Positions 31,004-57,360 of a stretch of 64,000 nt of DNA are shown here, one piece after another. How positions within the stretch are numbered: position 1 is the stretch's first letter; each line of letters starts with the position of its first letter. Both the position numbers and the translations under genes were made by a program. The notes beneath the pieces are model-generated. The model was given only the letters and a program-made list of their open reading frames with translations. It did not search any database and was not told the origin of the DNA. Source of the DNA: Bacteroidales bacterium (GTDB lineage: Bacteria; Bacteroidota; Bacteroidia; Bacteroidales; Prolixibacteraceae); the NCBI GenBank assembly GCA_012719495.1, contig JAAYAG010000122.1:1-64000 (forward strand). Reading direction: 5' to 3'.

Positions 31004-31252
31004 ATGTCGTTTATCCTAACGTCTGTCATCTCGTCTTTTAGAGTGATTTTAACTTTAGTTGTTTTTATCTTTCTTCTCCGATGGATCTTCGGTCTTTTTA
31101 GTATGGGCAAGCAAGATTCGGGTAATGAAAATCATGTATATTCTAAAGAAGCAGGATATACAAAAATTATTGCAGGGAAGAAAGTTGCCAGAAAAGATAG
31201 CAAAGCCGAAGGGGAATATGTCGAATATGAAGAAATCGATGGTGAAAACTAA
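31004..31252 (+). CDS. DUF4834-like small membrane protein
   Basis: This 82-residue protein has one N-terminal membrane helix (VILTLVVFIFLLRWIFGLF) and a charged tail ending KAEGEYVEYEEIDGEN. The GEYV-acidic ending is the pattern I recall for DUF4834 proteins in Bacteroidota. It is 36 nt after the DUF4252-like gene and 38 nt before the metK promoter box, so it is probably the last gene of the PspC unit. Function is unknown. Confidence 0.72.
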   Translation: MSFILTSVISSFRVILTLVVFIFLLRWIFGLFSMGKQDSGNENHVYSKEAGYTKIIAGKKVARKDSKAEGEYVEYEEIDGEN

Positions 31253-31290
31253 TATAAAAAACAAAAATCTTTTTTGAAGGAGAATTGTTT

Positions 31291-31298
31291 TATATTTG
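31291..31298 (+). promoter_or_regulatory. Candidate -7 box of metK
   Basis: TATATTTG matches TAnnTTTG. A start about 7 nt downstream (near 31305) would put the mRNA 5' end directly ahead of the aptamer at 31311. A TTTG at 31273-31276 is only 14 bp away, so the -33 element is doubtful. Confidence 0.5.
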
Positions 31299-31310
31299 TT
31301 GCGTTAAAAA

Positions 31311-31360
31311 TGTGGAGAGATTTGTGAATGATTGCAACCACAGAAAAAAATGCTAAAGCA
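31311..31360 (+). promoter_or_regulatory. SAM-II-like riboswitch aptamer upstream of metK
   Basis: The segment carries, in order, P1 TGTGG (31311-31315), GATTTG (31319-31324), TTGCA (31332-31336), P1' CCACA (31338-31342) and GCTAAAG (31352-31358). ATTT (31320-31323) can form a pseudoknot with AAAT (31348-31351). From memory this order matches the SAM-II consensus (GUGG..GAUUUG..UUGCA.CCAC..GCUAAAG). It sits ahead of SAM synthetase and just after a -7 box. The metK ATG is 71 nt downstream, unlike alphaproteobacterial cases where the ribosome site follows at once. Confidence 0.7.
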
Positions 31361-31430
31361 TTCGTATATAAACGATTGCACATCTTTTTCACATCTTCCA
31401 CTCATTATTACTAATTTAAAGTTACGTATT

Positions 31431-32720
31431 ATGAGTTATTTATTTACCTCAGAGTCGGTTTCAGAAGGGCATCCCGATAAAGTAGCCGACCAAATTTCTG
31501 ATGCTATTCTCGACAAAATTTTGGCTTTCGATCCGAATTCGAAAGTGGCTTGCGAAACGTTAGTAACAACTGGCCAGGTGGTATTGGCTGGCGAAATTAA
31601 GACCGAAACATACATTGATGTACAGGAGGTTGCTCGAGAAGTGATAAACCGAATTGGCTATACCAAAGCCGAATACCGTTTCGATGGCGATTCATGTGGC
31701 GTTTTTTCTGCTATTCATGAGCAGAGTCCCGATATTAACCGGGGAGTAGTTCGCGAAGATCCTATGAATCAGGGGGCTGGCGACCAGGGAATGATGTTTG
31801 GATACGCATGTAAGGAAACCGACAACTATATGCCACTATCTCTTGAGTTGTCGCATAAATTACTTCTCGAACTGGCAGCAATTCGCCGCGAAGGAAAGGT
31901 AATGACTTATCTTCGTCCCGACTCGAAATCGCAGGTTACCATTGAATACAACGATAATGGAGACCCTGTTCGTGTAGATACCATTGTGGTTTCTACTCAG
32001 CACGACGACTTTATCCATCCTGTTAATAATTCAGTTGAGGCTCAGTTGAAAGCTGATGAAGAGATGATTGCCAAAATCAAAGCCGATGTTGTTTCGATTT
32101 TGATCCCCAGGGTATTGGCTACATTGCCCGAACGCGTTAAAGCGTTGTTCAACGATAAAATTATCTACCATGTAAATCCAACTGGTAAATTTGTTATTGG
32201 AGGTCCTCACGGAGATACAGGTCTTACCGGTCGTAAAATTATTGTTGATACCTACGGAGGAAAAGGAGCCCACGGGGGCGGAGCATTCTCAGGTAAAGAC
32301 CCTTCGAAAGTTGACCGTTCAGCGGCTTATGCTTGCAGGCACATTGCAAAAAACCTTGTGGCAGCTGGTGTTGCTGACGAAATTCTTGTTCAGGTTGCTT
32401 ATGCTATTGGCGTTGCAAAGCCAATGAATATTTTCGTTAACACCTATGGAAAATCGAATGTGAAATGTTCCGATAGCGTTATTGCACAGAAAGTTGCCGA
32501 GATCTTCGACATGAGGCCAAAAGCTATTGAACAACGGTTGAAACTTAGAAACCCGATTTATGAAGAAACAGCGGCTTATGGGCACATGGGACGCGAACCT
32601 AAAACAGTTGTGAAAAAGTTCAACTCTTCATATTTCGAAAATATAGAGGTTGAAGTAGAACTGTTCACTTGGGAAAAAATTGACTATGTTGACAAAGTAA
32701 AAGCAGCATTTGGTTTGTAA
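31431..32720 (+). CDS. metK: S-adenosylmethionine synthetase
   Basis: This 429-residue enzyme makes SAM from methionine and [24 protein letters not shown] is the conserved N-terminus and fixes the start at 31431. [16 protein letters not shown] and [21 protein letters not shown] are both MetK signatures. Length fits the longer Bacteroidota enzymes. The reading frame stays open upstream through the riboswitch, with an ATG at 31350 and a TTG at 31332, but those residues are not MetK-like. Regulation is probably by SAM through the aptamer. Confidence 0.97.
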
Positions 32721-56025: not shown

Positions 56026-57360
56026 ATGATCGGAAAAATAGAAAAGAACCCTCAATTAGAGATGTTCAAAGTCCCACTCAAGCAATTCATTAACGAAGGC
56101 CATGAACTGGTACTACTTTCCCGGAAAATCGACTGGGAACAGCTTCAATCAGAGCTAAGCGTATACTATTGCGGGGATAATGGTAGGCCGTGCATACCTA
56201 TCCGCACCATTGCGGGCATCGTTCTTTTGAAGCGGATATTTGACGAAAGTGACGAGAGCATATTGGACAGATGGGTAGAAAACCCCTATTGGCAATATTT
56301 CTGTGGGGAAGTTTATTTCCAGTACGAGCCTCCTTTTGACCGGACTGAACTGATCAAGTTCCGCAAACGGATTGGCGAAGAAGGCTCGGAAAAACTGCTC
56401 AAAATGTCGGTTCAACTGTTCACCAAGAAAGAGTTCCAGGAAGATGAGGTTTTGATCGATACAACAGTGCAGGAGAAGAACATCACTTACCCTACGGATG
56501 TAAAACTACAAAAGAAAATTATCGAGAAGTGCAGGGAGATTGCGGTCAAAGAAGGGATCGAACTACGGCAGACTTACCGGAGGGAACTGAAACAGCTGAT
56601 GATAGACCAGCGTTTCCACAACCATCCCCGGCGGAGGAAGAAGGCATTGGCAGCTGCCCGCAGGATAAAAGTCATTGCCGGAAGGGTTATGCGCGACGTT
56701 GAAAGGAAAATGGACAACAACCAAAAAGAAAAGTACGCACCACAACTTGATATTTTCAACAAAGTATTGGCACAGGAAAGGAGCAGCAACGATAAGGTTT
56801 ACAGTTTGCACCAACCCCATGTGAAGTGCATCGCCAAAGGGAAAGAGGCGAAGAAGTATGAGTTTGGGAACAAAACATCGATCGTAAAGACGAAGAAATC
56901 GGGGATCATTGTTGGGGCAATGGCATTTATCGACAATGTTTACGATGGCGACACCCTGTTGCCACAATTGGAACAAACGGAAAGGATCACCGCTCACAAA
57001 CCCAAAGTAGGGATTGCCGACAGGGGCTACAAAGGGCGAAAGTCCGTAAACGGGGTACAGATCGTAATCCCTGCAAAATTGCCAGCTTATGCGACCAATT
57101 ATCAAAAGCAGAAAGCAAGGAAACGGTTTAGGGCAAGGGCGGGGATCGAACCGACGATCGGACATCTCAAACAAGACCACCGGATGGGCAGGAATTACCT
57201 TTTGGACGAGCAGGGCGATTTGGTCAATACCCTGCTGGCGGCGGCAGGGTTCAACTTAAGAAAAATGCTCCAGCGGTTGAAGGCTGGAGCACTTGATATT
57301 TTTGTCAGATTTATCTGGCGTATTTTTGCCATGGGTTGGAACCCCAAATATGCGTTTTAA
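56026..57360 (+). CDS. DDE transposase (IS5/IS1182-like)
   Basis: This transposase of about 444 residues has the N-terminal DUF772-like region (SVYYCGDNGRPCIPIRTIAGIVLLKRIF...YWQYFCGEVYFQ) and a DDE core. The likely catalytic residues are the Asp in LIDTTVQEKN, the Asp in GIADRGYKGR and the Glu in RAGIEPTIGHLKQDHRMGRNYL. All are present and the frame is intact, so it may be active. Translation may start at ATG 56026 or at TTG 56005 within the hairpin loop. Confidence 0.92.
   Translation: MIGKIEKNPQLEMFKVPLKQFINEGHELVLLSRKIDWEQLQSELSVYYCGDNGRPCIPIRTIAGIVLLKRIFDESDESILDRWVENPYWQYFCGEVYFQYEPPFDRTELIKFRKRIGEEGSEKLLKMSVQLFTKKEFQEDEVLIDTTVQEKNITYPTDVKLQKKIIEKCREIAVKEGIELRQTYRRELKQLMIDQRFHNHPRRRKKALAAARRIKVIAGRVMRDVERKMDNNQKEKYAPQLDIFNKVLAQERSSNDKVYSLHQPHVKCIAKGKEAKKYEFGNKTSIVKTKKSGIIVGAMAFIDNVYDGDTLLPQLEQTERITAHKPKVGIADRGYKGRKSVNGVQIVIPAKLPAYATNYQKQKARKRFRARAGIEPTIGHLKQDHRMGRNYLLDEQGDLVNTLLAAAGFNLRKMLQRLKAGALDIFVRFIWRIFAMGWNPKYAF

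Follow-up and report, generated by a model that had tools for sequence, protein, structure and literature searches.

How SAM could control the metK gene through a SAM-II aptamer in a phylum that hardly uses Shine-Dalgarno (SD) pairing is the question raised by this locus of a Bacteroidota genome. The preliminary description placed a SAM-II-class aptamer in front of metK, and an RF01726 match of 62.7 bits bears this out. The window referred to here is the whole stretch of DNA that was analysed, with a length of 64,000 nucleotides. The preliminary description also held that SD occlusion right after the pseudoknot is unavailable here and that the expression platform must differ. Both points agree with the findings in this work, as the pseudoknot is 64 nt away from the AUG in a phylum without classical SD sequences, and as a downstream strand can pair with both the aptamer and the start site in relatives. 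The reading that we regard as probable from the modelled folds is that the metK mRNA begins with an RF01726 aptamer, which works with a translational OFF platform covering the start codon. Support for it comes from the combined pattern of the family and not from the letters of the window. The new part is the output, and the aptamer itself is already known. The features of the promoter, the aptamer, and the gene are as follows.

31270 to 31298, + strand: likely promoter judged from the sequence, with TTTTTTG at 31270-31276 (-33-like) and TATATTTG at 31291-31298 (-7 box TAnnTTTG)
31306 to 31366, + strand: SAM-II (long loop) aptamer, RF01726, 62.7 bits
31311 to 31315, + strand: P1 5' strand UGUGG, from the Rfam alignment
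31323 to 31330, + strand: pseudoknot (P2) 5' strand UGUGAAUG, pairs with 31359-31366 in a register supported in relatives
31338 to 31342, + strand: P1 3' strand CCACA, from the Rfam alignment
31352 to 31358, + strand: conserved core GCUAAAG, from the Rfam alignment
31359 to 31366, + strand: pseudoknot (P2) 3' strand CAUUCGUA, pairs with 31323-31330
31431 to 32720, + strand: metK, which we take to be S-adenosylmethionine synthetase, an ORF with a homologous start at 31431

The RF01726 covariance model (SAM-II, long loop) matched 31306-31366 of the + strand over model positions 1-60 of 60, with 62.7 bits against a gathering score of 44 and an E value of 1.1e-9 for the whole window. This match and one tRNA are the two gathering-level Rfam matches in the 64-kb window, and the window's own genome has one RF01726 match. 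All motifs named in the preliminary description are present in the order that it gave, which is GTGG (31312-31315), GATTTG (31319-31324), TTGCA (31332-31336), CCAC (31338-31341), and GCTAAAG (31352-31358). GCUAAA is also present in the family leaders that were recovered by the covariance model. The end of the element was moved from 31360 to 31366, where the match ends, and the proposed ATTT/AAAT pseudoknot was replaced by the pairing of 31323-31330 with 31359-31366. The suggested check with the RF00521 (SAM_alpha) model was answered in part, as that model reached 16 bits at the same site against a cut-off of 36 and the SAM-II long-loop model RF01726 matched strongly. The element thus differs in score from the RF00521 SAM-II/metA element, with which it shares the core order, P1, and the pseudoknot (PMC1273637). 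With RF01726 it shares the aptamer sequence, P1, and the conserved core over the full model (PMC2864571).

The pseudoknot of the window has 8 bp and lies between the loop and the strand after GCUAAA. Among 34 distinct family leaders, 77% of the cells for its first six pairs hold a standard pair compared to 25-41% in slid registers; among all 160 distinct leaders the share is 61% compared to 31-42%. Pair 3 exhibits four pair types among the 34 distinct family leaders, with the pairing kept despite the variation. P1 gives little evidence either way because its core is near-invariant and because most of the 160 distinct leaders were recovered with a pattern that fixes GTGG (a scan that returned at least 119 stretches). 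Three of the four core pairs never vary among these leaders, and the outermost of the four is A-U in 1 leader and G-C in the other 159. The outermost P1 pair, 31311-31342, is often unpaired in relatives. The covariation sought by the preliminary description was found in the pseudoknot, which varies with pairing kept, and compensatory change is nearly absent from P1 because GUGG/CCAC is almost invariant. Judging from its sequence, this aptamer would bind SAM.

The aptamer lies directly upstream of metK, whose AUG is at 31431, and a metK start is present after the aptamer in all 92 of the 92 fresh family leaders. The name of the gene at 31431-32720 is taken from the preliminary description and from general knowledge of the family. 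The earlier placement of the transcript start just before the aptamer by a -7 box is supported. The box TATATTTG at 31291-31298 puts the start probably a few bases before P1, and in 128 of 152 leaders TANNTTTG precedes GTGG by at most 32 nt, compared to 9 of 152 with the box at -80 to -41. The -33/-7 promoter consensus is general background, save for what a published text says on the main promoter of B. thetaiotaomicron.

A search of the window's own genome together with 60 relatives identified the SAM-II element in 52 of these 61 genomes. Among the 9 genomes without a match, metK relatives with 60-71% identity were recovered in 5. Within the window's family, with its own genome counted, a larger search identified the element in 127 of 140 genomes and in every one of the 23 genera searched. 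Among 198 genomes from across the phylum 26 had the element, and 24 of these 26 exceeded the cut-off. These larger searches used stricter filters that lost some weak matches. The aptamer is ordinary for its lineage, since it is found in most genomes of the family (127/140), and it has been in print since 2005 and 2010. The 2005 paper reported SAM-II in the Bacteroides group, with B. thetaiotaomicron in a figure legend (PMC1273637), and RF01726 was listed for Bacteroidetes and marine sequences in 2010 under 'SAM-II long loops' (PMC2864571).

The MetK tree, which was built with a quick method and in which the label 'S' denotes a threshold chosen by us, groups the window with two Prolixibacteraceae rows in a clade that has 97% SH-aLRT support. 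Several other loci were observed during these searches. Genome G058, of the same order and one of the 5 genomes with metK but no SAM-II match, has a SAM-I/IV riboswitch (RF01725, 54.2 bits) at 1336-1432 of locus L202 with the metK ATG at 1486. Its metK thus carries SAM-I/IV where most relatives carry SAM-II, which is an exchange of aptamer class before an orthologous gene. Genome G269, a member of the window's family, has two SAM-II copies above the cut-off, at C143:2595-2654 and C35:45040-45099 (54.7 and 53.6 bits). Three loci (L147, L081, and L160) have metK with SAM-II on contigs labelled as Lachnospiraceae (Bacillota) or Chlorobiota. L147 is found among Muribaculaceae and Porphyromonadaceae rows of the tree and L081 beside Bacteroidales rows, therefore these assemblies are possibly mislabelled or contaminated. 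A second weak match in genome G038 (32.7 bits, L053) was rejected, as it has no aptamer-pattern match and no metK start after it, and by eye it resembles a terminator-like hairpin.

Translational riboswitches commonly use sequestor and anti-sequestor strands, where one strand pairs exclusively with the aptamer or with the initiation region, and start-site sequestration as such is textbook. Textbook switches usually hide the SD sequence. The proposed switch would instead hide the start codon and the bases flanking it, in a phylum where SD pairing is rarely used. The proposed strands downstream of the aptamer are as follows.

31388 to 31401, + strand: candidate anti-aptamer strand UUCACAUCUUCCAC, predicted duplex with 31312-31316, 31318-31320, and 31323-31328
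31400 to 31405, + strand: candidate sequestor 5' strand ACUCAU, from folds of the downstream part, with a 2-nt overlap with the anti-aptamer strand
31409 to 31428, + strand: candidate sequestor inner helix, 31409-31416 with 31420-31424 and 31426-31428, from the fold
31431 to 31436, + strand: candidate sequestor 3' strand AUGAGU, the metK start codon and codon 2, from the fold

At low SAM, 31388-31401 would invade the aptamer by pairing with the 5' strands of both P1 and the pseudoknot; the start site would be relatively open, so that MetK is made. When SAM is bound, P1 and the pseudoknot would hold the 5' half of the aptamer and release the downstream strand. The 3' edge of this strand, at 31400-31405, would then pair with the start codon and codon 2 (31431-31436) and block initiation. 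An SD sequence would be unnecessary for such a switch. The anti-aptamer and sequestor helices share only 2 nt (31400-31401), therefore one fold can hold both the altered aptamer and the covered start. When the RNA 3' end is set at 31450, the minimum free energy (MFE) structure keeps the sequestor while the 5' arm pairs elsewhere.

The leader sets differ between tests, with 158 leaders in the own-shuffle duplex test, 152 in the own-versus-other tests and the terminator and promoter counts, and 134 in the anti-strand shuffle. The fresh set was reduced from 92 to 39 leaders by dropping 53 that were at least 80% identical to an earlier leader or outside 60-220 nt. The analysed set leaves out locus L053, which has no match to the aptamer, leaders in which no metK start was recognised (L003, for example), repeated downstream sequences, length outliers, and loci L173-L197. 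The permutation and Fisher tests ignore the shared ancestry of the leaders.

The duplex of UUCACAUCUUCCAC with the 5' half of the aptamer has 14 bp and -14.9 kcal/mol, and the MFE structure of unliganded 31306-31460 is the anti-aptamer form. In the window alone this duplex is not significant against shuffles (p=0.095), and the whole leader folds somewhat better than its shuffles (z=-2.14, 7 of 200 as good). The CACA of the strand is invariant in the 5 near leaders that were aligned. The loops differ between lineages and the downstream strand follows the loop sequence. The downstream region of a leader pairs with its own aptamer 5' arm better than those of other leaders do, with z=-11.1 by permutation over 152 leaders (kinship ignored). 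The same comparison gives a median z of -5.5 with one leader for each of 45 loop classes, and z=-6.1 (p=0.0002, kinship ignored) for the 39 fresh distinct family leaders. Against its own shuffles the duplex is better at p<0.05 in 46 of 158 leaders, with a median z of -1.1. In the unliganded ensemble, GUGG of the P1 5' strand pairs preferentially with the downstream strand rather than within P1, in 32 of 35 and 35 of 39 leaders.

The pairing of the start codon exhibits a similar picture. The sequestor hairpin of the window alone has z=-1.26, with 21 of 200 shuffles as good. Across leaders, the start region pairs with its own upstream leader better than with those of others (z=-7.8 for 152 leaders and z=-3.7 for L001-L052, kinship ignored). 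In several relatives GGGA is located at the start, either with codon 2 (AUGGGA) or just before the AUG, and it goes with UCCC upstream. This UCCC is present in 13 of 14 first-set family leaders with GGGA compared to 6 of 21 without (p=2e-4), in 35 of 42 compared to 41 of 116 among all leaders, and in 19 of 20 compared to 3 of 19 among fresh distinct leaders (Fisher, p=4e-7, kinship ignored). Nine motif pairs were compared in three sets, and several of the pairs were not significant; GGGA/TCCC is the strongest and the sole pair that was carried to the fresh leaders. Other letters serve the start pairing in L045 (CACAAAUUUU with AAAAUUUGUG) and in L238, L250, L290, and L291 (GAUCAAUU with AAUUGAUC). 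Besides the window, one distinct fresh leader (L273) pairs ACUCA with UGAGU in its fold. For ATGAGT/ACTCAT there is no association (1 of 17 compared to 1 of 18). The start-region duplex energies of the fresh leaders give a weak own-versus-other signal (p=0.06). Complementary blocks of at least 6 between the start region and the upstream leader are not in excess, with 53 of 74 own compared to 48.9 (sd 3.6) swapped. An excess does appear when the count is narrowed to the anti strand's 3' part, with 37 of 152 own compared to 8.6% with the strands of other leaders. At family level, a downstream strand complementary to both the aptamer and the initiation region, as strand exchange calls for, thus appears to be present from the sequences, and the window alone is not significant.

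The cost of opening -10 to +3 was modelled in whole family leaders with the aptamer free or masked, where masking stands in for SAM binding and ignores the pseudoknot and the ligand energy. Masking raised the mean opening cost from 3.52 to 5.83 kcal/mol (+2.30) over 74 leaders. The cost rose by more than 1 kcal/mol in 51 of the 74 and fell by more than 1 kcal/mol in 1. In shuffled leaders masking raised the cost by 0.66, which gives z=16.3 for real compared to shuffled leaders (z=8.3 for the first set of 35 and z=12.9 for the fresh set of 39). Against shuffles of the anti strand alone the effect on accessibility is modest, with z=2.0 and 2.6, and 5.9 over 134 leaders. In an earlier test that covered the downstream part only, blocking the anti strand changed the cost by 2.46 on average, and the change exceeded 0.5 in 36 of 50. 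The opening cost of the window rose from 4.7 to 7.7 kcal/mol on masking. The modelled probability of the sequestor helix at 31431-31436 is 0.87-0.93 masked compared to 0.33-0.81 unmasked over six 3' ends. For context, the 38 ORFs of the window have a median opening cost of 3.6 kcal/mol and 2 of the 38 exceed 7.7, metK being counted there from an upstream in-frame ATG. The highest modelled cost among the 38 (17.5 kcal/mol) belongs to the first ATG of the ORF at 56026, which may be a wrong start or have a structured leader.

Since masking raises the opening cost, SAM should turn metK OFF, and this direction would also be expected for a SAM synthetase. The computation established the family membership, the pseudoknot, the complementarity of the anti strand across relatives, and the lower modelled accessibility of the start site on masking. 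SAM binding by this RNA, the OFF direction in the cell, and translation as the level of control are inferences.

Other outputs of the same aptamer were weighed against the start-codon platform. The strongest of them, which we nevertheless hold to be unlikely, is Rho-dependent termination, where SAM binding would release a leader strand that has C but no G and on which Rho could load, and transcription would stop before metK. The stretch 31379-31420 holds no G and the SAM-bound proxy frees part of it from the aptamer, no intrinsic terminator was found in the leader, and Rho control by a riboswitch is known (Hollands 2012, cited in PMC12121620). However, Rho leaves unexplained why the strand tracks the start-codon region (GGGA/UCCC) and why the opening cost rises, and it could act second, once translation is blocked. 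An action of the aptamer on mRNA stability instead of initiation is quite improbable. High SAM stabilised the metA and metZ RNAs in S. meliloti (PMC9373788), but this explanation leaves the anti-aptamer and start-site pairing without a reason. It is more improbable still that the pseudoknot itself hides the ribosome-binding site, which is the canonical SAM-II output modelled for S. meliloti metA (PMC9373788). In the window 64 nt separate the last base of the pseudoknot from the AUG, and the phylum is described as being without classical SD sequences (PMC7366714, PMC6847099). In the S. meliloti metA switch, too, a SAM-II riboswitch controls translation and the start codon in use lies downstream of it; there the SD sequence within the riboswitch is sequestered on SAM binding, whereas a separate downstream strand is proposed here to act on the start codon (PMC9373788).

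Two further outputs receive next to no probability for this locus. Initiation at the AUG at 31350 within the aptamer would give an N-extended MetK or a regulatory upstream ORF. In the window this AUG reads into metK in frame and without a stop, and it is in frame in 67 of 163 distinct leaders, slightly more than one third. It is both in frame and stop-free in only 10 of 163 distinct leaders, and the candidate (aptamer core AUGCUAAAG, window 31350-31433) was rejected as a start or upstream ORF on this count. Intrinsic transcription termination, as in some relatives, receives equally little. A terminator-like hairpin is present in 12 of 152 leaders, 7 of the 12 being in one 13-row clade of Bacteroidales that consists mostly of ruminant-gut assemblies by name. 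But there is no intrinsic terminator in 31200-31500 of the window, and none was called among the scanned first-set leaders L001-L052, with the fresh leaders L204-L295 lying outside that scan. The terminator-like hairpin rows of the wider 14-row Bacteroidales clade are L085, L098, L112, L126, L130, L134, L154, and L168. CTCCGCA is in the hairpin of 6 of these 8 rows (for instance L126, L134, and L154) and, judged by eye, can pair with the P1 5' strand UGUGGAG; therefore the same kind of anti-P1 strand would be the 5' arm of the terminator. The sequences of these rows suggest a change of output from translation to transcription.

The start-codon platform, our preferred reading, is consistent with the report that in F. 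johnsoniae, a member of a phylum without SD, ribosome density is lower where bases close to the start codon are paired (PMC6847099). With regard to small RNAs, how mRNAs are controlled at translation in Bacteroidota without classical SD has been described as a question still to be answered (PMC7366714). The text on the long-loop class, which points to an additional file for details, gives no expression platform (PMC2864571), and one is proposed here. Among the open-access matches listed, none describes the output of Bacteroidota SAM-II switches; subscription papers and supplements are outside that search. The 2007 survey, in its text on SAM-II, stated that the mechanisms lacked experimental proof and took the distal pseudoknot as the interface to the platform (PMC2258182).

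For the Bacteroidales metK SAM-II family as a whole, we lean slightly towards a broader reading. In this reading one invading strand would read the state of the aptamer and cover the start codon, co-evolving with codon 2 or the bases before the AUG. Sister lineages would have rewired such a strand into an intrinsic terminator, and the arrangement may be a general design for a phylum with weak SD usage. If true, a conserved switch that covers the start codon would be a concrete answer to how riboswitches control translation in Bacteroidota, testable in laboratory strains such as B. thetaiotaomicron and F. johnsoniae. It would also give an expression platform to a class whose mechanisms, in the text of the 2007 survey on that class, were not experimentally established (PMC2258182).
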